Assembly: GCF_041381155.1 (NCBI RefSeq)
Contig: NC_091144.1
Span: 17,741,544 to 17,805,543 of the forward strand
Origin: Argopecten irradians
Lineage: Eukaryota; Mollusca; Bivalvia; Pectinida; Pectinidae
DNA: 64,000 nt
Direction of reading: 5' to 3'
Each line of letters begins with the position of its first letter. The first letter of the stretch is position 1. The notes beneath the pieces are model-generated. The model was not told where the DNA came from, searched no databases, and saw nothing but the letters and a program-made list of their open reading frames with translations. A program made the translations under genes and the position numbers. Of the stretch, positions 6,388-44,433 are shown one piece after another.

Positions 6388-9300
6388 CTAACATATTTTC
6401 TTCCCTGGACTCGGTAAAATACTACTTCGACAATATGGCCGTGAACGTATTTCTCTCTGAAATATAAAATGAAACATATCACAAATGTTAATTGTTATTA
6501 TAATGTTATATAATTAGCATAAAATCTGTACCACATTTTGATGCACATAATGATTGAACAATTTAAAATACATAAAACATTAACTACAACTGCTTTACCT
6601 ATGTAAGCCATATGATGCTATGAAGCATTTACATTAAGTATTAAATCACTAACTTTGACTGATAATTAGTATTGAAGTGAGAATGTGCAGAATGACAAGG
6701 AAAGGATAGAAATTGTAGGAACAGATCTTCATATACATATGTCTGTGATTTCTGCTGGCTGAATTTGATTTCAGAATGAAGAGAATTAGACAGACCACCA
6801 CCAGTATGTAAACACATGTAATGTTTCCTGTAAATGTTGTGTTCTCCAAGTGATGAGACAGGCTTCAGATATTAGTAAACAGCTGACAGATAATAAATGG
6901 TACAAACTTCAAACTCCTGGTAGTCCCCGGTAGACGCAGTGGATAGCTCTCCAGTGTTAACGTGCGGCTGGAAACAGCTGCTTACCGTCGTGTGACTGAA
7001 CATGGTGTCGTTAGGAATCACATGGATGTCAGGGATATTCTTTTCTGCCAGTACTTTACGGGCGATGCGATTGGATCGTCGACGAGCTGATTTTCCTGCC
7101 TTACTTGCGGCAGGCGTCTGGAATAAGTAATGAACATACAAACCATTTCCAAAATCTTACAGGATGACACTAAAGCTCTACATCAAATACAATACGAGTC
7201 AGGGGCGTAGCCAGGTTTAAAACAATGTAGATGTATGGCATATGTTATCTCCTGCCTAATACATGCACCCCCTCTCAAAGACTCCCACACCATTACCATA
7301 GGTACCTCCCAAAACATGTTATAAATAGGAATTGTCTCTGTAGAAATTTCCTTGTATGCTAAGATCAAAATCACTTCATTTGTTTTGAAAATATACTTAA
7401 TATTAAATCAGATCTTTCCATATGAAGACACTATAAGTTTTTGGTGCAAGGTTGTATACATAATGGTGGTAATTATTTGTATTCTACCTGGGCAGTATAA
7501 CTCCATATTAACTAAATCAAAGGTTACATTAGATGAGTTTTTCTATGAAAAATGTCAATAGGATTATTTAAGGTGCATGCCACTAACAAGAAAATGAATG
7601 GACATAGAACACTTCCCATGAGAACTTAACATTTGGACAGTGGAGTTTAAAAGTGCAATATCAATGCTAACGTCAAAAAACTAATATTAAGTTTATGTTT
7701 CCAAAAAAAGCAAAACCCAAGTCAATGTCATTATTCTATATATTGACTTCCATGTGACCATACATAGATATGTGGAAAATTTGGAAAACAAACAATTTCC
7801 ATACATTTGGATTTCTAACAATAGAATGTCACCACAGTAATGCTAACATCAATTAATGTTGTGAGGAGTATAAATACTCATGGGAGAGTTTTTTGAGAAT
7901 AGTATAGCTTCGGATACAAGTAAAGAGAAAATGTATAAACATAATCAGTATTGATAATTATAAAATGAACATGAAAATGATGTGGATACACGAGAGTACC
8001 AGAGTCTATGGTAGCTTCGCGCCTGTGAGTACACTACTGTCAGGCATTTGTACCAAAAATAAGACATTCTTTCACCACAAATCACATAATATAAATAACT
8101 GGATATCACACATCACTAATACCCTACGTCTACCACTGTGCTAGCTATAGGAAAAGCTATAGAAACAGAAATGATTCCTCTTCTATATACAATTTGGAAT
8201 GAATGTGATACAAAAGAGAACTCATCAGTTTGCTTGTGGTGGTTGATTGTTTACGGAACAAAAGAGAACTTGACAGTTTACTTATTTGTGGTGGTAGAAT
8301 GTTTGTAAAAGAAAAGAGAACTCACCAGTTTACTTGTAGAGGCGGGAGGTTTGCGATACGGGGAGGCGAAGACACTCGAGTGTTGTATACGACTACAGGA
8401 TGATATTCTGCTACAGGATCCAGGAGTACGGGTCGTATCATTTCCCTGAAGATGATAAAACATTTTTACCTATCAGAATGGAATATACTGCTTTAATATG
8501 CAGAATACATATATCGTTAATAACAAACAGATATGGATTTATTTGCTTTCCTTGTACATGTGCTTCCATGGGAGCTTAATAAGGCAGGCGCTTATATAAA
8601 TGTGATCAATGGGACTAATTGTTGTACCACGTGATATTTGATAACTTTTGTGCAGGACTATTGTTCTATTTGTGATAGAATGACATCAAAGACGATATCC
8701 CGCGATATTGTCATTTCCACAAGGAAATTACTAGGAGTTACATTCCACCACCAACAAGCCCCGCACAAACATTATCGGGTATCACATGGTACGTGAATAA
8801 GTCCCATTGTTGCAAATCAATTTAATTTTAACAGCCAAAATGCTTTTCATTTTTACATAAACATATTCTTCCAAGCCTACACTAGAACGTAGTCTATTTT
8901 ATATGTTGCCATCTTTGACTTTTCTATAAAATAGGCGTTCCAAGCATCCTTTAACAAAAAGCTTCTTTTGCTTCCATGTAAATGTTTAATCAATATATTT
9001 CATTTAAATTTCATTTAAGGTAATGAGAATGCACCTCAATCAAGAGTTTTTCGATTTTAATCCATGCAGCAAATTATCATTTTCAAATGATATATAGCTT
9101 AAGTGATTTTAAAAACATAATGATAAGAGCAAAATAGGAAATCATTCAATTGAAGGAAACATTGTATATGGAGATTTCAGAAAAATGGGCGTGACGTCCA
9201 CAGAAAGTTTACATCCGGGTCCCTCAAAGGGACAAACACAACAGAATACACATTCATACTTGCAAATTCCCGATTTTAAATTGTTATCAGGTTACAGACA

Positions 9301-12300: not shown

Positions 12301-15300
12301 CATTTAACTCACTCACTTCAAAGAAATTGATTAAGTAGTATTTGCAAGCAAAGACATAAACTTATTCAGACTATTGAAAATAACATAGGATGTCATGATC
12401 ACATAAAAAAACTTAATATATATGTATTTGTAAATTGTAATTGTTACTTGGTAAGTTTTCCATCTTTAGATTCATTTAGATTTAAAACTTGATTCTTTGA
12501 GTTCCTCTATAAAATAATGTGCACAGCTATTTCACCCTTATCTGTTAACAAAAGTAGCCAAATCAATGATCTACAATCTAAGAAACACATTCTCTGTTTT
12601 TTGGGACACAAATTTTGACTAATGACTGACAAGAATTTTCCTACCCTCAATTATGTCAAGCATACCCAATATTATTGAAAAAAAACGGAAACAGTACAAA
12701 TTCCCTACCCTATCTTCCTTTTCTTTTATCTTTTCCTTCTGGTATCTGGTCCAGCGACTTTCAATGTAGTCCATGAAGCGTTCACCCTCCACCAGGAACT
12801 GTTGTCCGTTGGCTTTCTCCCATTCTGCTATGTTGTCCTTTACTTCCTCCTCCACCTGTACAACAGTAAGTATACCATCAAATACATCCTCAACCTGTAC
12901 AACAGTAAGTATACCATCAAATACATCCTCAACCTGTACAACAGTAAGTATACTATCAAATACATCCTCAACCTGTACAACAGTAAGTATACCATCAAAT
13001 ACATCCTCAACCTGTACAACAGTAAGTATACCATCAAATACATCCTCAACCTGTACAACAGTAAGTATACTATCAAATACATCCTCAACCTGTACAACAG
13101 TAAGTATACCATCAAATACATCCTCAACCTGTACAACAGTAAGTATACTATCAAATACATCCTCAACCTGTACAACAGTAAGTATACTATCAAATACATC
13201 CTCAACCTGTACAACATCAAATACATCCTAAGTATACCATCAAATACATCCTCAACCTGTACAACAGTAAGTATACTATCAAATACATCCTCAACCTGTA
13301 CAACAGTAAGTATACTATCAAATACATCCTCAACCTGTACAACAGTAAGTATACCATCAAATACATCCTCAACCTGTACAACAGTAAGTATACCATCAAA
13401 TACATCCTCAACCTGTACAACAGTAAGTATACCATCAAATACATCCTCAACCTGTACAACAGTAAGTATACCATCAAATACATCCTCAACCTGTACCAGT
13501 AAGTATACCATCAAATACATCCTCAACCTGTACAACAGTAAGTATACCATCAAATACATCCTCAACCTGTACAACAGTAAGTATACCTTCAAATACATCC
13601 TCAACCTGTACAACAGTAAGTAATATCAAATACATCCTCAACCTGTACAACAGTAAGTATATACCATCAAATACATCCTCAACCTGTACAACAGTAAGTA
13701 TACCATCAAATACATCCTCAACCTGTACAACAGTAAGTATACCATCAAATACATCCTCAACCTGTACAAACAGTAAGTATACCATCAAATACATCCTCAA
13801 CCTGTACAACAGTAAGTATACCATCAAATACATCCTCAACCTGTACAACAGTAAGTTATACCATCAAATACATCCTCAACCTGTACAACAGTAAGTATAC
13901 CATCAAATACATCCTCAACCTGTACAACAGTAAGTATACCATCAAATACATCCTCAACCTGTACAACAGTAAGTATACATCAAATACATCCTCAACCTGT
14001 ACAACAGTAAGTATACCATCAAATACATCCTCAAACCTGTACAACAGTAAGTATACCATCAAATACATCCTCAACCTGTACAACAGTAAGTATAACCATC
14101 AAATACATCCTCAACCTGTACAACAGTAAGTATACTATCAAATACATCCTCAACCTGTACAACAGTAAGTATACCATCAAATACATCCTCAACCTGTACA
14201 ACAGTAAAGTATACCATCAAATACATCCTCAACCTGTACAACAGTAAGTATACTATCAAATACATCCTCAACCTGTACAACAGTAAGTATACCATCAAAT
14301 ACATCCTCAACCTGTACAACAGTAAGTATAGTTACTACCATCAAATACATCCTCAACCTGTACAACAGTAGTATCCCATCAAATACATCCTCAACCTGTA
14401 CAACAGTAAGTATACCATCAAATACATCCTCAACCTGTACAACAGTAAGTATACCATCAAATACATCCTCAACCTGTACAACAGTAAGTCAACATACATC
14501 CTTCAATCCTCTACGATGTACAACAGTAGTATACCATCAAATACATCCTCAACCTGTACAACAGTAAGTATACCATCAAAAACATCCTCAACCTGTACAA
14601 CAGTAAGTATAACCATCAAATACATCCTCAACCTGTACAACAGTAAGTATACCATCAAATACATCCTCAACCTGTACAACAGTAAGTATACAATCATCAA
14701 ATACATCCTTACCTGTACAACAGTAAGTATACCATCAAATACATCCTCAAAATACAACAGTAAGTATACCAATCAAATACATCCTCAACCTGTACAACAG
14801 TACTAGTATACTATCTGTAATACATCCTCAACCTGTACAACAGTAAGTATAGCCTACAAATACATTCCTCAACCTTGTACAACAGTAAGTATAACCATCA
14901 AATACATCCTCAACCTGTACAACAGTAAGTATACCATCAAATACATCCTCAACCTGTACAACAGTAAGTATACTATCAAATACATCCTCAACCTGTACAA
15001 CAGTAAGTATAACTATCAAATACATCCTCAACCTGTACAACAGTAAGTATACCATCAAATACATCCTCAACCTGTACAACAGTAAGTATACATCAAATAC
15101 ATCCTCAACCTGTACAACAGTAAGTATACCATCAAATACATCCTCAACCTGTACAACAGTAAGTATACCTATCAAATACATCCTCAACCTGTACAACAGT
15201 AAGTATAACCATCAAATACATCCTCAACCTGTACAACAGTAAGTATACCATCAAATACATCCTCAACCTGTACAACAGTAAGTATACTATCAAATACATC

Positions 15301-18300
15301 CTCAACCTGTACAACAGTAAGTATACCATCAAATACATCCTCAACCCTGTACAACAGTAAGTATACCATCAAATACATCCTCAACCTGTACAACAGTAAG
15401 TATACCATCAAATACATCCTCAACTATACAACAGTCAAACTATCATATCCTCAACCTGTACAACAGTAAGTATACTATCAAATACATCCTCAACCTGTAC
15501 AACAGTAAGTATACCATCAAATACATCCTCAACCTGTACAACAGTAAGTATACTATCAAATACATCCTCAACCTGTACAACAGTAAGTATACCATCAAAT
15601 ACATCCTCAACCTGTACACAGTAAGTATACCAACATCCTCAACCTGTACAAGTAAGTATACATCAATACATCCTCAACCTGTACCAACAGTAAGTATACT
15701 ATCAAATACATCCTCAAACCTGTACAACAGTAAGTATACCATCAAATACATCCTCAACCTGTACAACAGTAAGTATACAATCAAATACATCCTCAACCTG
15801 TACAACAGTAAGTATACCATCAAATACATCCTCAACCTGTACAACAGTAAGTATACCATCAAATACATCCTCAACCTGTACAACAGTAAGTATACTATCA
15901 AAATACCTCAACCTGTACAACAGTAAAGTATACCCATCAAATACATCCTCAACCTGTACAACAGTAAGTATACCATCAAATACATCCTCAACCTGTACAC
16001 AGTAAGTATACATATCAACATAAACTTCCTCAACCTGTACAACAGTAAGTATACCAATCAAATACATCCTCAACCTGTACAACAGTAAGTATACCCATCA
16101 AATACATCCTCAACCTGTACAAACAGTAAGTATACCATCAAATACATCCTCAACCTGTACAACAGTAAGTATACCATCAAATACATCCTCAACCTGTACA
16201 ACAGTAAGTATATCATCAAATACATCCTCAAACCTGTACAACAGTAAGTATACCATCAAATACATCCTCAACCTGTACAACAGTAAGTATACTATCAAAT
16301 ACATCCTCAACCTGTACAACAGTAAGTATACCATCAAATACATCCTCAACCTGTACAACAGTAAGTATACCATCAAATACATCCTCAACCTGTACAACAG
16401 TAAGTATACCATCAAATACATCCTCAACCTGTACAACAGTAAGTATAACCTATCAAAATACATCCTCAACCTGTACAACAGTAAGTATACTATCAAATAC
16501 ATCCTCAACCTGTACAACAGTAAGTATACCATCAAATACATCCTCAAACTGTACAACAGTAAGTGTATATCAAAATACATCCTCAACCTGTACAACAGTA
16601 AGTATACTATCAAATACATCCTCAAACCTGTACAACAGTAATGTATACATCAAATACATCCTCACCTGTACAACAGTAAGTATACCATCAAATACATCCT
16701 CAACCTGTACAACAGTAAGTATACTATCAAATACATCCTCAACCTGTACAACAGTAAGTATACTATCAAATACATCCTCAACCTGTACAACAGTAAGTAT
16801 ACACCATCAAATACATCCTCAACCTGTACAACAGTAAGTATACTATCAAATACATCCTCAACCTGTACAACAGTAAGTATACCATCAAATACATCCTCAA
16901 CCTGTACAACAGTAAGTATATACCATCAAATACATCCTCAACCTGTACAACAGTAAGTATACCATCAAATACATCCTCAACCTGTACAACAGTAAGTATA
17001 CCATCAAATACATCCTCAACCTGTACAACAGTAAGTATACCATCAAATACATCCTCAACCTGTACAACAGTAAGTATACCATCAAATACATCCTCAACCT
17101 GTACAACAGTAAGTATACCATCAAATACATCCTCAACCTGTACAACAGTAAGTATATACCATCAAATACATCCTCAACCTGTACAACAGTAAGTATACCA
17201 TCAAATACATCCTCAACCTGTACAACAGTAAGTATACCATCAAATACATCCTCAACCTGTACAACAGTAAGTATACCATCAAATACATCCTCAACCTGTA
17301 CAACAGTAAGTATACCATCAAATACATCCTCAACCTGTACAACAGTAAGTATACCATCAAATACATCCTCAACCTGTACAACAGTAAGTATACCATCAAA
17401 TACATCCTCAACCTGTACAACAGTAAGTATACCATCAAATACATCCTCAACCTGTACAACAGTAAGTATACCATCAAATACATCCTCAACCTGTACAACA
17501 GTAAGTATACCATCAAATACATCCTCAACCTGTACAACAGTAAGTATACCATCAAATACATCCTCAACCTGTACAACAGTAAGTATACTTATCAAATACA
17601 TCCTCAACCTGTACAACAGTAAGTATACATCAAATCAAATACAACATCCTCATCCTCAAACCTGTACAACAGTAAGTATACCATCAAATACATCCTCAAC
17701 CTGTACAACAGTAAGTATACTATCAAATACATCCTCAACCTGTACAACAGTAAGTATACCATCAAATACATCCTCAACCTGTACAACAGTAAGTATACCA
17801 TCAAATACATCCTCAACCTGTACAACAGTAAGTATACCATCAAATACATCCTCAACCTGTACAACAGTAAGTATACCATCAAATACATCCTCAACCTGTA
17901 CAACAGTAAGTATACCATCAAATACATCCTCAACCTGTACAACAGTAAGTATACCATCAAATACATCCTCAACCTGTACAACAGTAAGTATACCATCAAA
18001 TACATCCTCAACCTGTACAACAGTAAGTATACCATCAAATACATCCTCAACCTGTACAACAGTAAGTATACCATCAAATACATCCTCAACCTGTACAACA
18101 GTAAGTATACCATCAAATACATCCTCAACCTGTACAACAGTAAGTATACCATCAAATACATCCTCAACCTGTACAACAGTAAGTATACCATCAAATACAT
18201 CCTCAACCTGTACAACAGTAAGTATACTATCAAATACATCCTCAACCTGTACAACAGTAAGTATACCATCAAATACATCCTCAACCTGTACAACAGTAAG

Positions 18301-21300
18301 TATACCATCAAATACATCCTCAACCTGTACAACAGTAAGTATACCATCAAATACATCCTCAACCTGTACAACAGTAAGTATACCATCAAATACATCCTCA
18401 ACCTGTACAACAGTAAGTATACCATCAAATACATCCTCAACCTGTACAACAGTAAGTATACCATCAAATACATCCTCAACCTGTACAACAGTAAGTATAC
18501 CATCAAATACATCCTCAACCTGTACAACAGTAAGTATACTATCAAATACATCCTCAACCTGTACAACAGTAAGTATACCATCAAATACATCCTCAACCTG
18601 TACAACAGTAAGTAACCACCAAATACATCCTCAACCTGTACAACAGTAAGTATACTATCAAATACATCCTCAACCTGTACAACAGTAAGTATACTATCAA
18701 ATACATCCTCAACCTGTACAACAGTAAGTATACCATCAAATACATCCTCAACCTGTACAACAGTAAGTATACCATCAAATACATCCTCAACCTGTACAAC
18801 AGTAAGTATACCATCAAATACATCCTCAACCTGTACAACAGTAAGTAACCACCAAATACATCCTCAACCTGTACAACAGTAAGGATACTATCAAATACAT
18901 CCTCAACCTGTACAACAGTAAGTATACCACCATATACATCCTTAACTGTACAATTCGAAAATTTCTGAAAAGTTATTATAAACAACAAATGATATTTAAA
19001 TGTAAAGTTCTTATAAACTTCTTTATTTCAATATCAAATGATATTCCTTTAACTGTAGTGTTTCCCACAGCCCAGATTAGCATGGCGCCGCGCCGTGCCC
19101 TTTTTACCTGACGACATGCTACTATAACCTAACGCCCCGCTGCCCTTTTGTCCCCAGTACACTTTTACTAAACTACCAAAATACCAGGCAGTGGTTTAAT
19201 AATTAAGTAAACAAAAGAGGTGTGACCACTCCCTGACCCCCTGACTAACACCCCAGTGGCCCTAATTAGCAGCCTTTGGCTATTTCCATATTATGTAAGC
19301 TGAAGTCAAGAAGTCGATCGGCAGCCTAGAAAACAATCAGCTGGCCTTTCAATAAGTTTTATGACTACAGCTAGTGAGCATTACTTCAAAAACAAATACT
19401 GCTTACAACTGTAAATGATTTACTCACGTTTTTAATGTTTAATAGGCCTATCTATATCTGATGGATGTCACAAGCTTTGCAATCATAATGGCCGCCATTT
19501 TGGGTGTATTGTAAAAGTAGATCCGGAGGTATGGAATTTCAGGATTTTTACTAGTATTCACGTTTTTAAAAATGAAAACGGTATTTTTTTTTTAGAATTT
19601 CCATGTGAATTTATTTTTAGAAAAGATATATTAATAATAACTTTATTAATAGCAAAGTAATTAAAATAAATCAAATTAAAAAGAAATCAACTTTTTTCTC
19701 TATCAGATTAAATTAAAATATTTTGAATACTACTCTTAACAATTATCTGTATTTTCTTTATTTCGTGCTTGTAAATTTAGACCATTATTTTAATTAAATA
19801 TCCATTATTATGAAACATGTTATCTTATTCAATTCAATACAGTATTTTTAATATTTCAATAAAGATATATATTAAAATAAAGGTAATTGCATTGAAATAA
19901 AGGAATACATTTTGCATTTTTCCCATTCTTTTAATTAATATAAATGAAATTTAGATCTTTCTTGTGAATAAATTATAGTCATGATCATATGATCGACAGA
20001 TTACAATTTCGAAAATCATTCTGTTCACTCAGAATAATTAAATAGATGTCCTGATATTACTTAGCAACTCAGAGAGTTTAAAGCATTTCAATGATATTAA
20101 GTTGATCCAGAGTTAAATCTTTTAAAGATTTTCCCTTGTATTGGAAGTCGTCGATATAACCTTTGTGCCCCTCTGATGGTTATTTATCGTGGTCAAATTG
20201 CCCTTTTCAAAACCCAGCACCATGCCCTTTTTTTTCCTGTGGGAAACACTAAACTGTAAGTGTGAATGACTGGTATTGAACTCCTCAAACAGTAGAGTAA
20301 CACTTATTCAAGTAAGTGTGCTGAATAACCACTTCAAATCTATTTATACCTTTGGCAGTTCTTTTAGGAGTTTCTTCCTTGCCTTCTCCTCCTGGAGGAG
20401 GTTACCTCCCCTGTTGTTGAATCTGTTTGGATCACATGCTTTTCTCTGAGGAGGAGATATTTTGTTGGTGATTACAATTTTTTCTCTATCTATCAATGCT
20501 TAAAATAATGCAAAAAAATATAAGAGGTTGAGCAGACATAACAACAAACAAAAGGGGATACAGAAATTAAATGTTTGCAGTTAAATCTGTTTGAAAGAAA
20601 ATTGTGCAGGTAGCAGCAACTTTATTGCGATTATTTTGCAGCAAGGTTGCAAGATATTTTTAATGTATTTAAGAAGTTTCATGATCAGTTTAATTGCACT
20701 TGGTCTGATTGATAAATAGCAACAGGTGATTTACCTCAAACTCCAACATTTGTTTGAAGAGTACCTCCCAGCGTGCCACATTTTCATACAACTGATGATG
20801 GTTGTCATAAAGTTGTCTAACTCTCGCCACTTCTTTGTCATGGATTTCCAGTAACTCTTCTGTATAATCATCTGTGTGAAAAGAGTTATCAATTTGAATT
20901 TGTTTGGTTGTAAAGTCATTTGTGGTCATACCTTAAACTATTAAGCTTTAAACTGCAACAATTCTTTTAAACTCTTTAATTCTTAGTTTACTTCATGCAA
21001 AGGTGATTTCACTTTTTTTATGGAAAAATGCAACAGAAAACTTTACATTAATCATTCATTCCCTTGATATATATATCAACACTAACAGACCAATGTAACA
21101 ATAAAATTATCTTTTAAAGCAGTAAAATTATATAAACATTTGCATTCATAATTTCCATTTGTTATAGAAGCAGGGCATGAAATCTATAGTGCCTGAATAT
21201 TCAATAACATATGAAAAAAATATTATTTATTGGTACTTGATACGAGTCACACCTGATAATTTATTTATTTACCTGCAATGTGGAAGTGTTTAAATGCAGC

Positions 21301-30836: not shown

Positions 30837-31020
30837 CGTTTCGTGATTAAAACCAGCTCTTCAATACGCTTACGCATCAGATTGGCACAGTAACTGTATN
30901 NNNNNNNNNNNNNNNNNNNNNNNNNNNNNNNNTACGTTGTTGTGAACATTGTAATATTTTTGTACAAAAATTAAATTTCATTTCGACAGTGTCGATGGGG
31001 GACTGTGATTTGTCAAATTA
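30216..31020. other. Unannotated stretch with an assembly gap
   Basis: No gene is seen. It contains an (AT)n tract near 30808-30837 and 33 Ns at 30900-30932, which mark a scaffold join or unresolved sequence. The missing upstream GPAM exons could lie in or beyond this gap. Confidence 0.8.
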
Positions 31021-31024
31021 TTGA

Positions 31025-33355
31025 CGACTTTACCAGCAGTGTAACACAGTCATGTACCTGTTTATTAATAGACTTGTTAGCAGTGTAACACAGTCATGTA
31101 CCAGTTTATTAATAGACTTGTTAGCATGTAACACAGTAATGTACCAGTTTATTAATAGACTTGTTTAGCAGTGTAACACAGTCAGTATCATTTATTAACA
31201 GACTTGTTAGCAGTGTAACACAGTCACGTATCAGTTTATTAATAGACTTGTTAGCAGTGTAACACAGTCATGTTATCAGTTAGTTTATTAATAGACTTGT
31301 TAGCAGTGTAACACAGTCATGTATTAGTTTATTAATAGACTTGTTAGCAGTGTAACACAGTCATGTACCAGTTTATTAATAGACTTGTTAGCAGTGTAAC
31401 ACAGTCATGTATCAGTTTATTAATAGACTTGTTAGCAGTGTAACACAGTCATGTACCAGTTTATTAATAGACTTGTTAGCAGTGTAACACAGTCATGTAC
31501 CAGTTTATTAATAGACTTGTTAGCAGTGTAACACAGTCATGTCCCAGTTTATTAATAGACTTGTTAGCAGTGTAACACAGTCATGTACTAGTTTATTAAT
31601 AGACTTGTTAGCAGTGTAACACAGTCATGTACTAGTTTATTAATAGACTTGTTAGCAGTGTAACACAGTCATGTACTAGTTTATTAATAGACTTGTTAGC
31701 AGTGTAACACAGTCATGTCCAGTTTATTAATAGACTTGTTAGCAGTGTAACACAGTCATAACACAGTGTACCAGTTTATTAATAGACTTGTTAGCAGTGT
31801 AACACAGTCATGTACTAGTTTATTAATAGACTTGTTTAGCAGTGTAACACAGTCATGTCCAGTTTATTAATAGACTTGTTAGCAGTGTAACACAGTCATG
31901 TACTAGTTTATTAATAGACTTGTTAGCAGTGTAACACAGTCATGTCATGTTATTAATAGACTTGTTAGCATGTAACACAGTCATGTAACTAGTTTATTAA
32001 TAGACTTGTTAGCAGTGTAACACAGTCATGTACTAGTTTATTAATAGACTTGTTAGCAGTGTAACACAGTCATGTACTAGTTTATTAATAGACTTGTTAG
32101 CAGTGTAACACAGTTGTCATGTATAGTTTATTAATAGACTTGTTAGCAGTGTAAACACAGTCATGTACCAGTTTATTAATAGACTTGTTAGCAGTGTAAC
32201 ACAGTCATGTACTAGTTTATTAATAGACTTGTTAGCAGTGTAACACAGTCATGTACCAGTTTATTAATAGACTTGTTAGCAGTGTAACACAGTCATGTAC
32301 TAGTTTATTAATAGACTTGTTAGCAGTGTAACACAGTCATGTACCAGTTTATTAATAGACTTGTTAGCAGTGTAACACAGTCATGTATCAGTTTATTAAT
32401 AGACTTGTTAGCAGTGTAACACAGTCATGTATTAGTTTATTAATAGACTTGTTAGCAGTGTAACACAGTCATGTACCAGTTTATTAATAGACTTGTTAGC
32501 AGTGTAACACAGTCATGTATAGTTTATTAATAGACTTGTTAGCAGTGTAACACAGTCATGTATAGTTTATTAATAGACTTGTTAGCAGTGTAACACAGTC
32601 ATGTACGTATTAGTTTAAATTAGACTTGTTAGCAGTGTAACACAGTCATGTACTAGTTTATTAATAGACTTGTTAGCAGTGTAACACAGTCATGTAAGTT
32701 TATTAATAGACTTGTTAGCAGTGTAACACAGTCATGTACTAGTTTATTAATAGACTTGTTAGCAGTGTAACACAGTCATGTACAGTTTATTATAGCTTTT
32801 AGTGTAACAGACATTGTTAGCAGTGTAACACAGTCATGTATCAGTTTATTAATAGACTTGTTAGCAGTGTAACACAGTCATGTACCAGTTTATTAATAGA
32901 CTTGTTAGCAGTGTAACACAGTCATGTACCAGTTTATTAATAGACTTGTTAGCAGTGTAACACAGTCATGTACAGTTTATTAATAGACTTGTTAGCAGTG
33001 TAACACAGTCATGTACTAGTTTATTAATAGACTTGTTAGCAGTGTAACACAGTCATGTACAGTTTATTAATAGACTTGTTAGCAGTGTAACACAGTCATG
33101 TACCAGTTTATTAATAGACTTGTTAGCAGTGTAACACAGTAATGTACCAGTTTATTAATAGACTTGTTAGCAGTGTAACACAGTCATGTCCCAGTTTATT
33201 AATATAACACAGTCATGTCCCAGTTTATTAATAGACTTTTAGCAGTGTAACACAGTCATGTATCAGTTTATTAATAGACTTGTTAGCAGTGTAACACAGT
33301 CATGTATCAGTTTATTAATAGACTTGTTAGCAGTGTAACACAGTCATGTCCCAGT
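31025..33355 (+). repeat. 44-bp minisatellite in a GPAM intron, about 53 units
   Basis: A tandem array with a 44-bp period; the unit reads GTGTAACACAGTCATGTACC then AGTTTATTAATAGACTTGTT then AGCA. Variation is concentrated at the TACC/TACT/TATC/TCC position. The array ends 50 bp before the 3' splice site of the GPAM exon at 33406. Each unit holds TTATTAATAGAC, which resembles a branch point, but 44 is not a multiple of three and the units do not copy exon sequence. Confidence 0.96.
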
Positions 33356-33405
33356 TCACTTGACTAACCCTGTCGTTTAAGATCTGTACTGTACCTGTTA
33401 TATAG

Positions 33406-36400
33406 AGAGGCGTCCCTGTGATCTACATTCCCCTACATAGGAGCCACCTGGACTACATACTGGTGACCTTCATCCTCTGGAACTACAGTATCAAGGCACC
33501 CTACATTGCTGCCGGCGACAATCTCAGGATGCCAATCTTTAGGTGTGTAAATGATAATTCCTATTAAAATACTATTAAACTTACAATCATTATCAAAGAT
33601 TTAGCAATTGATATGATTTAATTTCACAGTTTAGAATAACATTGTTATATTTTACATATACTCTGAATGTTTTTGTGGCTATCAGATTTTGCAAATTTTT
33701 ATCGCTCAAGAAATAATCGTACATAGCAACAAGTTAGTTTACAGTAAATGTTCTTAAGCCACATTTTTCATGAGAACATTTTTTTTACATATTACAGTGT
33801 ACAAGGTGGCAATTTTTTGTGACATGAACAATTTTTAATTATTTCACTTTTAATTAAAATTCTCGGAATATATCCACATAAACCAAGTGTAAATTTTGAC
33901 ATGTGAACTATTTCACCATATAGACACACAGTGAGAAAATTATGTCGTTTGAAAGCTGATTTAGCATGGGGTAAACATGCAGAAAAATTCCTATGGACTG
34001 TGTGTTTAGTGTAACAAGTGTGAGATTCTGTTTCTCTCATTTTTTAGCTCCCTGATCACAGGATTAGGAGGATTTTTCATCAGACGTAAGCTGGATAAGA
34101 AGATAGGAACAAAGGACAAGGTGTATAGAGCTGTGCTTCACTCTGTAAGTGTAGATACCAGGATTTCTCTACATTTTACCCTACTATATATATATATGTA
34201 TATATACCAAGCTGGTTATTTTAATTAAAACAAGAAAATTTCATTTCAGTGGTATTAATTTTCTGTGTTCTTGCTGTAATAGAACGTTGAGTCTAATCAA
34301 CCCACCAACAAACTGTAGTAAAGTTATTTTTATTGTAAAGAACTGTCTGGGCTTCTATGAACCAGAATACACTTTGATATTACTTAAAAGGTAACATAAA
34401 AGATGATAAGAATGATGACTTTGATTATTTGACAGTACATGCAGGAGTTACTGAAGAGAGGTGAAGCTTTGGAATTTTTCATCGAGGGTGGCCGCTCCCG
34501 TACAGGAAAGGCTTGTCAACCTAAAGGTGGATTGGTGTCGGTGGTTGTGGATGCCCAGATCAATGGTTTGTAGCTAGCAAGTCATATCTGTATTTTGTGG
34601 TTGGTTTTGGTTAGCAAACCTGTAGATTATTAAAGCAGAGAAATATGTTCCAACTTTAAACATTTATCAAATAAATAAAGTTGTATTTTGTAACACATTG
34701 TGTATCTGATGACAAATGAAGGCCATTATCTGTGAATTTCTAATTCAAATTTAAACAGCACACTTGATTAACTCTATTTAGAAGCAAGTCTCAGAATGGA
34801 TAAATTTGAGTTACTTCCCTTTACATCTAGGCACTCTTATCACATTCATACTAGTAAAACTTGTAAACAAGCTTAACTTTTTCTACAGAATAACATGTTG
34901 AAATGATTTATTGTATTTCAGATGTAATGGAAGATGCTTACATTGTACCTATAAGTATAAACTACGAAAAAATTCTGGATGGGAATTTTAATCGGGAACA
35001 AATGGTAAGCGAGGGTTATATATTATAAAAGATTAATGCATGCTGTTTTAGATTGTAACTTTAATATTCTCACCGCTAGACTGGTAATTCAATAGTAAGA
35101 GTGTTAACAGCAAGTTTCATATTTTAAGAGAAAATTACTATACTTTGTTTCATATTTTAAGAGAAAATTACTATACTTTGTGTATACGTATAAACAATAA
35201 TTTGATTTATAATTGAAATTGGAAGTGTTTTATGTTTATTTTTTGAGACTTTTCATTTTCTCACAAACATTTGGAAAAAGTGTTGATTAATGGAGCATTT
35301 TTTATCCCAATTTTTCTTTTAAAGTAAAAATTAAAGTGAAAATTGTTTTTTGTTGCAGGGTCTACCTAAAGTGAAGGAGACATTTATAGGAGCTATTAAG
35401 GCCATATGGCGGGTGTTCTGTAGCGACTTCGGCAGTGTAAGGGTGGAGTTCTGTCAGCCATTCTCCCTCAAGGTAATATCATAGAATTGAAACCAGCGAA
35501 ATAAAAACGTCTTCTTTCATCTGACATCTTTGGCATCATTTACATTCATTTTAAGAAGAGCTTACTTCCTTTATTATCCCCCGCTTTTTCAGAAACATGG
35601 GATATTAATTTGGGTTTGTCTGTCTGTCCGTCTGTCTGTAACACTTCGTTTCCGTGCAATAAATGTAACAAATGTAAACCAATTTTCTTCAATCTTGATG
35701 ACAAGGTTAAATGCATTAAGGGTTCGTCCAAGTTTGATCGCGACTGTCGATGGACCATATTTAGTGGAGTTATGACCCTTTGAATTACTAAAAACGTCTT
35801 TTTCTGCCATTTCTGTGCAATTAGTGTAACAAATGTAAATCGATTTTCTTCAAAGTTAGTAACAAGGTTAAATGTCTTATTTTCAGCGGATGTTATTTAT
35901 CAGAGTTATGGCCCTTTAATTTACTACAAATATAATTTTTCTGCAGTTTCTGTGTAATAACTAACAAATGTTAAAAATAATATTGTAAAAAATTTGTAAC
36001 AAAGTAAAATGCCTTATGCACTTCCGTATAATAACTGTAATAAATATTAACCAATTTTCTTCAAACTTGGTAACAAAGTTAAATGTCTTAAGGGCTTGGC
36101 CAAGTTCGATCGCCACTTGCGATGGACATTATTAAGCAGATTTAAAGATGCTCGGACGGAGCATAAATGATGCTCATCATTTGAACAACAATTGCTATTT
36201 TCAAAATCGTGTATATACATGTCTAATTTACACAAAAAATAATATAGAGTAATTTATTTTGGTTTTGGTGCATGCGCAGTTAGAACTTCGTTCTATATAG
36301 AACATAGTGCCACGGAATTTTTTCGGGATGCAATTAATTATTTCTAATATTTTTTTCTTGAAGTAAAATTAGAAGCTCTGAACTTTCCAATGGTAGTAAT

Positions 36401-39400
36401 GGTGTAAAGTAAGTAACTTTTGTAAATGAAGAAAAATACCAAATCGTCTGATCCTGTTTTTGATAGTGAAAAAAATACAATTTCTCAGCGGTGGAGCATC
36501 TTTAATAAGAAAAAAATCATTTTCTGCCATTTTCCTGCAATAACTGATTTTCTTCAAACTTGGTAACAAAGTCAAATGCCTTAAGGGCTCGGCCAAGTTC
36601 GATTGCCACAGCATCTTTCAACCAAGGTTAAACCTAACCTCAATAATGTTTACCTACAATATGTCCTGAAAGCGGGGGATGGAAATTCCACGAGTTTGCT
36701 TGTTCTGATCAATTTTACTTCTGTATTACCATAAATGAAATTAATCACATAGGTATACATGTAGTTCTTTTCTAAACTCTTCAAGCTGAACTGTAGTGAA
36801 GGTTGTATATTTAAAGATTTAGGTAGTTTCTGTTTGGCTCTTGAGAAGGTTATCGATTGTGAGACCTTTCACAAATCAGATGACTTTGTTATACCCAAAG
36901 AGGAGTAAAAAACTTTTTGTATGAACATATTGTGTTCTTGATAATTTCATGGACATTGTATTTTAATTATGAACCCCATTAACATATTAAGTTGCTATGT
37001 TGTAGGAATACCTGATGAAGATCCAGCCAGTCCAACCCTCCCCTCCTCATAGTGACACATCTAGCCAGGGAAGTCCCCCCGAGTCTCCCCCACCGATGCA
37101 GAAAGCTGGTAGTTTGAGTTCGCTGTTCGGTACCGACATTATGGTAGAGGATCAGAGACACGCCATCAAACAGTTGTCAGAACACATTGTGCACAGTAAG
37201 TTGTCAGAACACATCATACACAGTAAGTTGTCAGAACACAACGTACACAGTAAGTTGTCAGAACACAACGTACACAGTAAGTTGTCAGAACACATCATAC
37301 ACAGTAAGTTGTCAGAACACGCCGTACACAGTAAGTTGTCAGAACACATCGTACACAGTAAGTTGTCAGAACACGTCGTACACAGTAAGTTGTCAGAACA
37401 CATCGTATACAGTAAGTTGTCAGAACACATCGTACACAGTAAGTTGTCAGAACACATTGTACACAGTAAATTGTCAGAACAAGTCGTACACAGTAAGTTG
37501 TCAGATCACATTGTACACAGTAAGTTGTCAGAACACGTTGTACACAGTAAGTTGTCAGAACACATCGTACACAGTAAGTTGTCAGAACACGTCGTACACA
37601 GTAAGTTGTCAGAACACATCGTACACAGTAAGTTGTCAGAACACGTCGTACACAGTAAGTTGTCAGAACACGTCGTACACAGTAAGTTGTCAGAACACGT
37701 CGTACACAGTAAGTTGTCAGAACACATCGTACACAGTAAGTTAAGAGAACACGTCGTACACAGTAAGTTGTCAGAACACGTCGTACACAGTAATTGTCAA
37801 AACACGTCGTACACAGTAAGTTGTCAGAACATGTGTACACAGTAAGTTGTCAGAACACATCGTACACAGTAAGTTGTCAGAACACGTCGTACACAGTAAG
37901 TTGTCAGAACACGTCGTACACAGTAAGTTGTCAGAACACATCGTACACAGTAAGTTAAGAGAACACGTCGTACACAGTAAGTTGTCAGAACACGTCGTAC
38001 ACAGTAAGTTGTCAAACACGTCGTACACAGTAAGTTGTCAGAACATGTTGTACACAGTGTAACGTAAGTTGTCAGAACACATCGTACACAGTAAGTTGTC
38101 AGAACACGTTGTACACAGTTAGTTGTCAGAACACATCGTACACAGTAAGTTGTTAGCACACGCCGTACACAGTAAGTCTGTACCTTGTTAAAGTTTGTCT
38201 TCAGAGAAACAAAAATATTTTATATGAAATTAAGATTTATGATTTAAATTTACTATTATGAAAAAAATGTATTTTATGAGGGCCTTATCATTATCATTAA
38301 AATATCACTCACGATTTTCAAATAAAATAATAATGGAAAATTTGGAAAATACAGTATTAAATTAAGATATTATCATTGTAATATATTTTTTTTGTATTTA
38401 CAGCTTGTGTCCATGCTACGCCTGTTATGTGTACCAATATGGTGGCTTTCCTCCTCCTAACCAAACACAGAGAGGTAGGTATAGACAGAGGTCATCACAA
38501 AGGTCAAGCTACTATAACTTATTTTTAGATTTAGTGAGTTTTAAAACTTACATGTTAGCTATGATTTCATTTGATTTTCAGTTCTTCATAATGATATTAA
38601 TTAAAAGGTTTTCTTTTGGTCTTTGATTTGATTCTGTCATACAATACTCATATTATAGATTTTGTATATTTCTTCTTATCCCACCATGAAATAAGGGTTG
38701 TATAGTGTTACATATGTGTATCCTGTCCCAACACATTTCCCTCTGATTTAGACTGGATTACCTGCCTTGGTACCAATTCTCTCTGCTAGGCTGCGCTCAA
38801 AAGTATTTTTGGAGTGAAGCCTTTCGGAGAGTAGAAAAACTGCGGCAGGCAATCCAGTCTACCCTTTGATTCTAGATACTCAGACTTTTCTAGTTTATAA
38901 TAAGTTGATGTTGATTCTCATTCTTTTAGATTGAATTTTTTTTAAAGTAAATTAAGAATTGAAGAAAACAGAAATACGCCTTTGAAATGTAAATATACTA
39001 TACAGTTGTTTTGTCCTTGATAGCATGTAACATTACAAAAAGTATTGGAAGTAACTTCAAACTTTAATATGAGTAGGTATGGTTTATTTTTCTGTTCCTT
39101 ACATATATATCATGTAACTATCTACAGGGTACAAGCATGAAGCAGTTGATACAGGATTTTGATTGGCTGAGGCAGGAAATGAAAAGCCGTAACCGCGATG
39201 TTGCCTTTGTGGGCAGCTCAAGTGAAGTTACACACTATGCCTGTGCTCTCCTAGGGTCTAACCTGATTCAGAGGTCAGTTTAGTGGCTGGTTCTGGAAAG
39301 ATTTATCATTAGCATGTAAAATTATCATTTATGAGGTAGTAGAATCTGTTGCCACTCCAATACATAGAGTGTCTCCTAATTATCACAGGCTATTTGAAAT

Positions 39401-42400
39401 AACGCTGAATCTGTTTATAGAAATAGATATTGTTAACCAATTTATTTTCACATTGATATAATGCCACATTTTCATTTCTATCAAGTGATTGGTAAAATGA
39501 TTATAAGAATTATGAAATGAAATTTTCATGTCTTGCATGTACAGGGGCAGTGGTGATGATGGTGATATTCAAGTGATACCAATACTAAGCCTACCGACTG
39601 TGTTTGAGTTGAGTTATTATAGCAACACTCTTGTATCAGCCTATCTACTGGAGAGTGTGTTAGGTAAGGAACTTCTTTTTACCACAATATCAAATGTGTT
39701 GATGAACTTCATTGAAATATCCTGTTAAACAATGAAGATTTGTCTTGTGTTTATTACATTATCATTATAGGACTTCTGGGTCTATCAACCCTCGAACAGA
39801 AGAGAGTGATTTGCTGATGTAGTAGCTTGTGGCTACCAAACTGAATGTCGATGTTTCTCTTTGTAGTTTGCTCAGTCATTTACCACTGTGATATAGGACT
39901 TTTCGTGCCGAGTCAGTCCAGAACTGCCAACGTTATGGCCGCCTCCACTGACGATATCATCGACACAGCCTCCGAAATATGTAAACTTCTGAGATATGAA
40001 TTCATATGTATTCCGGTATGTCTACTTGTAATTTATTTTTAATTCCTCTAATTAATAAAAAACTATCAATTATATACATACCATATGTAGAATATGTATA
40101 GAAAGCAGGTAACAAGTACCAGTATTCTGTATAGTAGCTTCAATATGGTAAATTTGTTATATTAAATCTTCATACACTAAAATGTTTTAAATAAAGTATA
40201 TGATGCAGTATTATAATAGATTGAATGTTTTACCATGTGTATTATGTAAGATATATATAGGGCAAAAAAGTAATTCTAACAGTGGGACAAAATATTGTTG
40301 AATTTTCCATGCGATCTGTCCCTTTGCAAGAACAAATAGAATTACATATTAATGACGGTAACGAATGTTGACAAAAACACAAGCAATGAAAACATATAGA
40401 ACATACAGGTAAACTATAGGGACAATGGTGATGTGTGTTGTCTGAATGTTCCCTTCGGTCAGTCGCTATAATTAGTTGCGATTGCCAAAGGCTAATGTAG
40501 TTTGTATAGTTTATCTAAGGCTTATGTAGTTTAATATGTATGCAAGATACATATATGTATATATATATATTTATAAATGAAGGTTTTATATGGTCAAATA
40601 AAGTAGGAAGTTTGAGATAATAGTTCATATATAATAACGTAATAACATGCGCATATATGTAGCTCATCAAAATGAAATGATTTTACGACACGATTGTACA
40701 GAGTATACGTTTTGATTTGCAGCCTTGTGAAAAAGTTGAGGAAACACTACTTGAAACTCTTCATAATTTGATCTCTCGTGAACTGTTCAAGTATCGAGAC
40801 CAACAGGTTGGCATATATTTGTTTCTACATCATCATTATAACTAATACTGTAGAATATTTCAAATTACATGTATACATGTTCCTTAACTTTTATTCAGAA
40901 TAGTCCAAATAATCTATTGATCTTCATATCAGCTGCATTTATGATATTCAAAATAATTAGAAATATTTTTTATTATGCTTTTCATTTCAGCGACATTTAC
41001 TTAATGTTATTGAAATGATTTATAATTAGCTGAATTATTTATTTCCTCATAATTATGAAAATAAGTAATGATCAACATTGATGATAGACTTACAAAATTC
41101 ATGTTACAATTACACAGTATCCATGAATTTATCTGTATCCATCACTGTTACAATTACACAGTATCCATGAATTTATCTGTATCCATCACTGTTACAATTA
41201 CATAGTATCCATGAATTTATCTGTATCCATCACTGTTACAATTACATAGTATCCATGAATTTATCTGTATCCATCACTGTTACAATTACACAGTATCCAT
41301 GAATTTATCTGTTTCCATCACTGTTTCAATTACACAGTATACATGAATTTATCGATATCTATCACTGTTACAATTACACAATATACATGAATTTATCTGT
41401 ATCCATCATTGTTACAATTACACAATATACATGAATTTATCTGTATCCATCATTGTTACAATTACACAGTATACATGAATTTATCTGTATCCATCACTGT
41501 TATAATTACACAGTATCCATGAATTTATCTGTATCCATCCCTGTTACAATTACACAGTATCCATGAATTTATCTGTATCCATCACTGTTACAATTACACA
41601 GTATCCATGAATTTATCTGTATCCATCACTGTTACAATTACACAGTATACATGAATTTATCTGTATCCATCACTGTTACAATTACACAGTATACATGAAT
41701 TTATCTGTATCCATCACTGTTACAATTACACAGTATCCATGAATTTATCTGTATCCATCACTGTTACAATTACACAGTATCCATGAATTTATCTGAATCC
41801 ATCACTGTATTACATTAGATATGTCTGATACGATGTCACCATCTGTGTTCAAAACACGCAAACTACAAATATTTAAAGTCTAAATTAGTTTGTACAGAAG
41901 TCATTGTTTGTTTTTAACTTCAGACGGGCTCAAATCTTGACTCGGTCAATAATCGGATGTCCAAGCAATTTTCAGAGTTGTCCTGGGAAGACGAAGACGA
42001 AGGAATATTTCAGGAGCAGTTTATCAAGGTACATAAATCTTTATTCATTTAAAGAGAAATTAAGTTAAACCTCTTAAATTGAAGTTGGTGAAATAAGTTA
42101 GACCTCTTAAATTGAAGTTGGTGAGATAAGTTGGACCTCTTAAATTGAAGTTGGTGAGATAAGTTGGACCTCTTAAATTGAAGTTGGTGAGATAAGTTTG
42201 ACCTCTTAAATTGAAGTTGGTGAGATAAGTTGGACCTCTTAAATTTGAAGTTGGTGAGATATCAGTAAATTGCGTTAGAAGTTAATATAAAGCTCAGTTT
42301 GACAAACAAATCTTCAAGTGAATGAAAATATCAAGTTATACTTATTACTTCTTGTTTAAAAAAAATTCCATGACAGGTTTTGTTCTCCATGCAAATCTTA

Positions 42401-44433
42401 AAAGAAATATATATTTGAGGTTTTAAAGTATATGCGGGTATCTGTAATTGTCTTCAATATCTTCACTTTTGTTTTTCATTTTTTGCTTGTTTGTTGAGAA
42501 ATCTACATGCATTGCAAAATGAAATTATGGATTATTTGATTTCAATACTCTGGTCTGGTTATCATTGTTAATTATCTGACTGATTATATTGTTATAACCA
42601 TTTGTTACCGTTTTGGTTTTCCAGGCTAACATGGAGCGCCTTGACTGTGTAGAGAACATGGTATTTCTACACCACGTACTGGCACCATTTTTAGAGTCCT
42701 ACCTTCTCACAGCCCGCAAAATCAATACCGACCTCGCCACAGAGCTCCCAGGTAAAGGCATCGTTTAAAAATCCAACATTTTATCATAAGGAAAAATTCA
42801 CTGACAACAAGTATTTCAGCTGTTAAAAGACAAATACATGAAATATATCCCTATCACATTTTATGTTGTCTTTTTGATTTCGTCATAATAAGCATTTATT
42901 GAAGTAAGCTCTATTATCAATATCAAATATGACACAAAGAATGTGGACAAAGTATGGCTCATTGGCTTACAGTTCTAGTTTTGTTTTGTCATGAAAATAT
43001 GCATTCATTAAAGTGAACTCTAGCATCAATATCAAATATGAAAAATTCATAACAGAGAATATCAAATATGATAAATTTATTTAACAGAGAATATCAAATA
43101 TGACAATTTCCATCCCCCGCTTTCAGGACATATTGTAGATAAACATTATTGAGGTAAGGTTTAACCTTGGTTGAAACATGAAAAAATAAATCGAAGTCTT
43201 ATTTGGAAGTAAGACATTTAACTTTGTTACCAAGTTTGAAGAAAATTGGATAATATTTATTACAGTTTATGTACGGAAGTGGCAGAAAATGATGTTTTTA
43301 ATAATTCAAAGGGCCATAACTCCGCAAATAAGGTCCATCGACAGTCGCAATTGAACTTGGCTGAGCCCTTAAGGCATTAAACCTTGTCACCAAGTTTGAA
43401 GAAAATCGGTTTAAATTTGTTTGTTTTTACACAGAATATGCAGAAAAATATTTGTAGTAAATTAAAGGGCCATTACTCTGATAAATAACATTTGCTGAAA
43501 GAGTTGATCGAACCTGGCCCGGCACTTAAAGCTTTCATTCTTGTTAACAAGTTTGAAGAAAATCGGTTAATATTTATTACAGTTATTGTATGGAAGTGGC
43601 AAAAACTGACTTTTTTTTATTTAAGCAAAGAGCCATAACTCCGCTATATAAGGTCTGTTGAGAGTGGCGATCAAAATTTGCTGAGTCCTTAAGGCATTTA
43701 ACTTTGTTACTAAGTTTGAAGAAAATCGGTTTCCATTTTTTACACTTATTGCACGGAAATGGCAGAAAGTGATGTTTTTAGTAATTCAATGGGCCATAAC
43801 TCCGCTAAATAAGGTCCATCGACAGTCGTAATAAACAGCTAAGTCCTTAAGGCATTTAATTTTATTACCAAGTTTGAAGAAAATCGGTTTACATTTGTTA
43901 CATTTATTGCAAGGAAACAAAGTGTTACAGACAGACGGACCAACCCAAATTAATATCCCCCGTTTTGGAGAAAGCGGGGGAGGATAAATGTGTTTAACAG
44001 AGAATATCAAATATGACAAATTTATTTAACAGAGAATGACTTCCTGCATGATGTGTTGACTTTTGCCAAGAAAAGAGTGGAACAAGGAATAGCTGGTTAT
44101 GGTAAGTTTTACTGTTCTCATCAAAATCAAACAAGCAAGGTTTATAGGATAAAAAAGTTTTAAGATGATCTGTTTTGATATCTGATGTAAAAAAAGATTT
44201 ATGTTTGATTTTGTTTGAAAGATGAAGTTGTTTTCAAAGCATGTGTGTTTGCTTTTGTAGTTGAGAGTGCTGCTTTTGAGTCCATAAAGAATGCATTAAA
44301 GGCCTATCAGGATGTGAAAGTCATAGACTGTTACTTCGCTGGGGATATAAAGATGGTGGAAGTCCGAGATCACTTTGAAGTCCGGGACAAAATTCGTAAT
44401 TACATAGGCCTGCTTGAAAGCTTACAGGAGTAA
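33406..44433 (+). CDS. GPAM: Mitochondrial glycerol-3-phosphate acyltransferase (GPAT1 type), 5'-incomplete, 15 exons
   Basis: Acylates glycerol-3-phosphate at sn-1, the first step of glycerolipid synthesis, on the outer mitochondrial membrane (family knowledge). Exons: 33406-33542, 34048-34144, 34436-34565, 34922-35004, 35359-35472, 37006-37195, 38404-38474, 39128-39273, 39545-39663, 39867-40015, 40723-40806, 41924-42028, 42625-42751, 44033-44101, 44261-44433. All junctions are GT-AG with consistent phases: 1794 nt, 597 aa plus TAA. Local residues: catalytic H(X4)D motif HRSHLD (11-16), block II GGFFIRR (53-59), block III EGGRSR (95-100), block IV IVPISINY (129-136). Vertebrate GPAT1 has T in block III (EGTRSR). 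The C-terminal part aligns without large gaps to human GPAM (TVFELSYYSN, DCYFAGD). About 215 N-terminal residues, including the region before HRSHLD, are not found in the window. The donor of the exon at 37006 lies in a 27-bp repeat array. Confidence 0.95.
35578..36678 (+). mobile_element. Interspersed repeat with CCCCCGCTTT termini, copy 1 (GPAM intron)
   Basis: Bounded by CCCCCGCTTTTTCAG and CTGAAAGCGGGGG. The interior has internally repeated modules of about 150 bp (TTTTCTTCAAACTTGGTAAC, CCTTAAGGGCTCGGCCAAGT, GGAGTTATGGCCCTTT). It is interrupted by a TA-flanked MITE at 36143-36504. An inverted copy is at 43114-43980. I recall this repeat as abundant in bivalves. The open frames through it are not genes. 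Confidence 0.7.
36143..36504. mobile_element. Tc1/mariner-type MITE (TIR AAGATGCTC), nested copy
   Basis: Ends TAAAGATGCTC and GAGCATCTTTA give inverted repeats flanked by TA, the Tc1/mariner target duplication. It is homologous, in inverted orientation, to 48370-48718 (shared GTGCATGCGCA, GATGCAATTAATTATT). It sits inside the CCCCCGCTTT element, so it inserted later. Confidence 0.7.
37006..37195 (+). CDS. GPAM: GPAM exon whose 5' splice site is tandemly amplified
   Basis: Encodes EYLMKIQPVQPSPPHSD, then a Pro/Ser-rich linker and RHAIKQLSEHIVH. With the first donor (GTAAGT at 37196) it joins exactly to the exon at 38404, giving EHIVHTCVHATPVM, the same length as human EHILFTASKSCAIM. The reading frame stays open past this donor to 37842 because each following 27-bp unit encodes SKLSEHIVH. 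Using a later donor would therefore add multiples of nine residues. Confidence 0.9.
37173..38178 (+). repeat. 27-bp splice-donor minisatellite at the end of a GPAM exon, about 37 units
   Basis: A tandem array with a 27-bp period; the unit is AGTAAGTTGTCAGAACACAT then CGTACAC, so every unit holds CACA|GTAAGT, a consensus 5' splice site. Variants are ATC/GTC/GCC/ATT at one codon and rare indels. The frame of the upstream exon stays open for about 23 units until a one-base deletion near 37793. The last unit ends in GTAAGTCTG at 38172-38180, followed by unique intron. The long open frame 37015-37845 is exon plus array, not an independent gene. Confidence 0.97.
41100..41810 (+). repeat. 44-bp minisatellite in a GPAM intron, 16 units
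   Basis: A tandem array; the unit reads TGTTACAATTACACAGTATC then CATGAATTTATCTGTATCCA then TCAC. Variants include ACACAGTATA and ATTACATAGT. It lies in intron 40807-41923 and contains no exon copy. Confidence 0.95.
42060..42262 (+). repeat. 33-bp tandem repeat in a GPAM intron, 6 units
   Basis: The unit reads AGTTGGACCTCTTAAATTGA then AGTTGGTGAGATA. It starts about 30 bp after the donor at 42029. Confidence 0.93.
43114..43980 (-). mobile_element. Interspersed repeat with CCCCCGCTTT termini, copy 2, inverted
   Basis: Reverse-complement relative to 35578-36678. Termini CCCCCGCTTTCAGGAC and GGAGAAAGCGGGGG, with modules AAGTTTGAAGAAAATCGGTT and GGGCCATAACTCCGC repeated about five times. It lies in intron 42752-44032. 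Just outside it, the sequence TTTAACAGAGAATATCAAAT is duplicated several times and mimics the acceptor of the exon at 44033. Confidence 0.7.

Follow-up and report, generated by a model that had tools for sequence, protein, structure and literature searches.

A minisatellite is reportedly present at exon 2 of the human gene IFI6 (6-16), as described by Turri et al. in 1995. This exon-end minisatellite supplies repeated splice donors. In the available passages of PMC4526556, further repeat units serve as donors, leading to three mRNAs. Tandem repeats localized over exon-intron boundaries, called mirages, are known in amphioxus, where regular splicing is reported to be undisturbed (passages of PMC3087553 and PMC3902484). 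The genes concerned in these passages are Adh3, the globins BflGb6 and BflGb9, troponin C and PGBD5. In molluscs, a 27-bp minisatellite of variable repeat number is described in intron 3 of an abalone TSSK1-like gene; the passages of PMC6905558 do not place this repeat at an exon boundary. For bivalves, the literature search showed no boundary minisatellite among the listings and passages that it returned.

The window, i.e., the whole stretch of 64,000 nucleotides analyzed here, contains part of the gene GPAM of the scallop Argopecten irradians, with an array over one of its exon-intron boundaries. The features concerned are as follows.

37006..37195, plus strand: GPAM exon, sixth in the window, aligned to human GPAT1 (8e4y) without a gap at the junction and matching protein P0001.
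37172..38177, plus strand: 27-bp donor minisatellite, 37 units (Tandem Repeats Finder, donor list).
37196..37792, plus strand: 23 phase-1 open-frame donors (donor list), the first of which (37196) is the donor used in P0001.
37793..38177, plus strand: 14 more copies of the donor, either not in phase or located after a stop (donor list).
38404..38474, plus strand: next GPAM exon, acceptor TTTACAG/CTTGTG (gene model, P0001 match).

The tandem repeat spans the boundary, the exon 37006-37195 running into it. The last 22 nt of this exon seed the array, and the unit corresponds to these 22 nt plus GTAAG. According to Tandem Repeats Finder, 37172-38177 has a period of 27 and 37.1 copies (90% matches), which agrees with the initial annotation, where an exon-end and donor unit of 27 bp was repeated about 37 times. 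The units carry the splice signal (37 ACA/GT donors for GPAM, from 37196 to 38172, and 150 TGTACAG acceptors for PRC1, see below), both lists being made by searching for that signal itself; a 38th ACAGT, at 37173, is inside the GPAM exon. The claim of about 23 in-frame donors holds as well: 23 of the 37 are in phase (37196-37790, spacing 27) and their frame is open through the next exon (extent checked by script). GTAAGT is used by 21 of them, the exceptions being 37466 (GTAAAT) and 37790 (GTAATT). From 37790 on, the frame is shifted by 26-bp units and a stop is encountered at 37843-37845. The joined GPAM exons match human GPAT1 (8e4y, E=1.9e-97) and Pfam finds GPAT_C and Acyltransferase in the gene model. 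When 37006-37195 is joined to 38404, there is no gap at the junction with respect to 8e4y; the human alignment fits the first donor, as had been claimed. Minisatellites spanning no junction are also present in GPAM introns (31035-33356, 41102-41808 and 42061-42261), the one at 31035-33356 ending about 50 bp before an acceptor.

The comparison with the described systems leads to the following: (i) as in human IFI6, an exon-end minisatellite supplies repeated splice donors; (ii) as for the abalone TSSK1-like gene in the passages cited above, a mollusc gene has a 27-bp intronic minisatellite; (iii) with reference to the amphioxus mirages, the organism is a bivalve mollusc, several genes are affected, and there are 37 and about 150 units vs. 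3 in one BflGb6 haplotype and 6 in the other according to those passages. The strict 27-nt phase over 23 donors is a feature of the scallop. Compared with the known mirages, the novelty lies in the phylum and the scale, and in the fact that splice-site choice is put to a natural test.

It is probable (roughly 80%) that the GPAM array is a boundary minisatellite, i.e., a mirage, with the exon-proximal donor used and the protein unchanged. P0001 has 849 aa and is carried by a 3007-bp contig (source tag «lgn», presumably for Logan assemblies). Its residues 253-849 alone cover 11 kb of genome; since a contig of 3007 bp is too short to be genomic, P0001 is probably a cDNA product, i.e., derived from spliced RNA. 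P0001 has 97-99% identity with the GPAM gene model and reads LSEHIVH/TCVHATP, i.e., the first donor joined to the next exon. At the protein level, the regular GPAM product is therefore still made. The same junction is found in Pecten, Ylistrum, Mizuhopecten and the homologue P0005. The motif S[KR]L[SA]E[HQ] is absent from the 120 best-listed of 1,700 GPAT1 homologues, and a query with 22 repeat units (repeated 9-mer) returned 5 proteins, all first-donor; this evidence is at the protein level, with 90% clustering, which can hide minor isoforms, and with candidates up to 1,039 aa (homologue search) or 875 aa (repeat-targeted search) for a 22-unit isoform of 1,047 aa.

A U1 duplex energy of −5.6 kcal/mol is obtained for 33 of the 37 donor copies, including the first one, and the first donor is not seen to be more accessible in the predicted fold. 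A stronger U1 pairing or a better accessibility of this donor is thus not observed in the energy and fold comparison. The choice therefore seems to depend on position, as would be expected if the nearest donor is defined by the exon together with its upstream acceptor. The donor positions were also compared with the rest of the unit, with p=0.02 for a higher conservation when the variable position 18 is included and p=0.20 when it is not; the units having been cut at ACAGT, no claim is made.

PRC1, on the minus strand of the window, has 12 coding exons (24059 to 6391) and two boundary arrays.

20350..20445, minus strand: coding exon 7 of PRC1, joined by splicing to 12855 (5kmg junction, gene model).
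12848..18953, minus strand: 39-bp acceptor minisatellite over the start of PRC1 coding exon 8 (Tandem Repeats Finder, site list).
12709..12855, minus strand: PRC1 coding exon 8, authentic exon-proximal acceptor at 12855 (Pfam MAP65_ASE1; 5kmg; P0121/P0122).
8210..8345, minus strand: decayed donor array of 3 copies of about 50 bp, PRC1 coding exon 10 (Tandem Repeats Finder, junction test).

Upstream of exon 8, 149 extra TGTACAG sites are found, up to 18945 and mostly 39 bp apart. With the authentic one this makes 150 copies, of which 10 (authentic included) are in frame and open. The exon 7/8 junction is gapless vs. human PRC1 (5kmg, E=1.1e-20). The exon-proximal acceptor is used in both A. irradians models fetched (P0121/P0122; X2, X3), the splicing evidence for PRC1 being database models. 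At exon 10, Tandem Repeats Finder gives 2.5 copies of 52 (8210-8335); the donor is 8326, and the two downstream copies are decayed and have lost their GT. Among the GPAM and PRC1 junctions of the window, 3 of 50 tested have local copies (50 of 51 were tested, the PRC1 exon 6 donor being left out, and a number of PRC1 boundaries being placed at whichever AG or GT lay closest). A 42-bp minisatellite occupies 1-2388, from the window start; it is beyond the PRC1 stop codon, with no PRC1 junction there, and tblastn fragments suggest that it continues for several kb into locus L009.

Boundary arrays appear common in this genome (845,758,899 bases). In 20 random stretches of 10 kb, tandem arrays represent 22,756 of 200,000 bases (25 arrays); five more stretches give 12,819 of 50,000 bases (11 arrays), most of it in one mucin-like locus. 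The latter (L031, 292-10000) contains long Thr/Pro-rich tandem repeats of coding type. In another scallop, Amusium pleuronectes, no class of repeats is larger than the tandem ones, which make up 21.7% (passages of PMC10225492). Among the 34 array blocks of these 250 kb, two are at exon ends (uricase and VPS37-like). A further donor array is found on contig C1.

L027, 6409-8127: array of 78-bp units at the donor of a uricase exon (PDB E=3.9e-20).
L019, 1-188, minus strand: array of 52-bp units at the donor of a VPS37-like exon (Pfam E=2.3e-6, under the cut-off).
L037, on C1: array of 48-bp units at the donor of a guanylate cyclase exon (Pfam 2.8e-7, PDB 9e-11).

The VPS37-like exon is the weakest example: its Pfam score is 28.1 bits for a cut-off of 30.1, no PDB match is obtained, and the genome search with that family did not return the exon; its assignment is thus putative. 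A search for coding flanks in 41 array blocks yielded 107 ORFs at their edges, and 89 were kept once those of the mucin-like locus (18) had been removed. The top four among the 89 are GPAM, uricase, VPS37-like and PRC1, the rank of GPAM being circular because the score was trained on GPAM exons. The GPAM array has 9 other DNA matches (64-72% identity). Of 7 such loci checked, only L004 shows GTAAGT in the consensus, and inspection by eye revealed no exon at this locus. At L028 (5650-5952), a 43-bp array with CAG/GTAAG in each unit is a putative boundary array, its exon being unconfirmed. Moreover, CAGGTAAGT sites mostly 88 bp apart (G000, C1:5402872-5403581) are perhaps another donor array of long unit.

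Two other explanations of the GPAM array must be considered. Several of the 23 in-frame donors might be used, giving GPAT1 with 9n extra residues: these donors are in phase and near-identical in sequence, and two downstream repeat units are used as donors in human IFI6 (passages of PMC4526556). This is improbable, since P0001 and the repeat-targeted search give the first donor alone and the unit changes show no protein-level constraint. Of the changes that distinguish the 22 in-frame units, 16 affect codon position 1, 4 position 2 and 7 position 3, the encoded 9-mer being therefore not visibly conserved; no third-position excess was found among these units, and coding selection on the 9-mer is thus not supported. 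Unlike IFI6, inner-donor use was not found for scallop GPAM in the protein searches (90% clustering, length-windowed), and a low-level use of inner donors may occur. The length-variable GPAT1 put forward by the initial annotation is thus unsupported and, judging from these protein sequences, unlikely: P0001 and the scallops named above are first-donor, and no repeat-bearing protein was returned by the repeat-targeted search (candidates up to 875 aa).

A collapsed or over-expanded repeat, i.e., an assembly artefact, is even less probable. GPAM is indeed split: the exons for residues 1-252 are on contig C6 (6772298-6778130, minus strand) and the rest on C11 (window 33406-44433). Moreover, a run of 33 N is present at 30900-30932, followed by a 44-bp array. 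The split is likely a scaffold misjoin, although it may be a real translocation, and given this split the copy number of the GPAM array may be off. Against an artefact, the array has units of differing sequence and is bordered by the exon and intron that belong there, and unrelated arrays of like type are present at other genes.

A third explanation, which goes beyond mere tolerance, is that splice junctions are preferred birthplaces of minisatellites, through transcription- or splicing-coupled events. The genome-wide counts are in its favour. Three CAGGTAAGT with gaps of 13-42 (triple motif) are found 2,739 times vs. 76 for the reversed pattern taken as control (36-fold), and single sites 19,404 times vs. 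5,409 (3.6-fold), these counts being clumped and referring to matches, not arrays; the triple-to-single ratio is 14.1% vs. 1.4%. The local copies at 3 of the 50 tested junctions of the window point in the same direction. On the other hand, all CAGGTAAGT triples among the matches listed fall in 4 arrays on C1. In the four arrays from the start of C1, one is the verified guanylate-cyclase donor and one a plausible exon end without family match; an exon was sought at the remaining two and none was found. The acceptor-like TTTACAGG triples are 3,845 vs. 1,819 reversed (2.1-fold), a comparison of triples alone. Lastly, two boundary arrays in 250 kb vs. about 0.5 expected by uniform seeding is a weak excess (p about 0.09), for an assumed junction density and with 24 arrays entered (25 on a recount without mucin and long-period blocks). 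A special birth mechanism at splice junctions is suggested, and such a preference is doubtful. Extrapolation from the two arrays in 250 kb, one being the weaker VPS37-like case, gives 6,766 junction arrays (95% interval 819-24,441).

The boundary minisatellite with use of the exon-proximal donor remains the preferred reading, and could have arisen as follows. A short tandem duplication would have spanned the junction between the window's sixth GPAM exon and the adjoining intron. Its probable site is the 3-bp microhomology AGT: the array edges are CAGT and AAGT, with AGT common to both. The PRC1 acceptor array has TTGTACAG at both edges. This duplication at microhomology, followed by expansion, is inferred from one genome. 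Growth to 37 units would have occurred by ordinary minisatellite turnover. Because the spliceosome would take the exon-proximal donor, the other 36 donors would be removed with the intron and the protein would stay unchanged; the in-frame repeat would be incidental, following from a unit that is 27 nt long and derives from coding sequence. The array would thus be neutral, with the donor chosen by exon definition. Like arrays, at other donors and at an acceptor, would persist in this tandem-repeat-rich genome because only the outermost copy is used.

With these data, mirages, known from a few genes of amphioxus, are extended to a mollusc, in whose genome they seem to be common. Tentatively, splice junctions in A. 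irradians, and perhaps in bivalves generally, could be minisatellite hot spots; thousands of them may carry arrays, the splicing machinery taking the exon-proximal site past up to about 150 competitors. Boundary duplication provides raw material for intron gain, and at junctions of this kind gene-prediction programs might report isoforms that do not exist. An intron in which tens of donors, or of acceptors, are almost identical is a natural competition experiment and tests exon definition directly, and it is this competition among many near-identical splice sites that is worth following.
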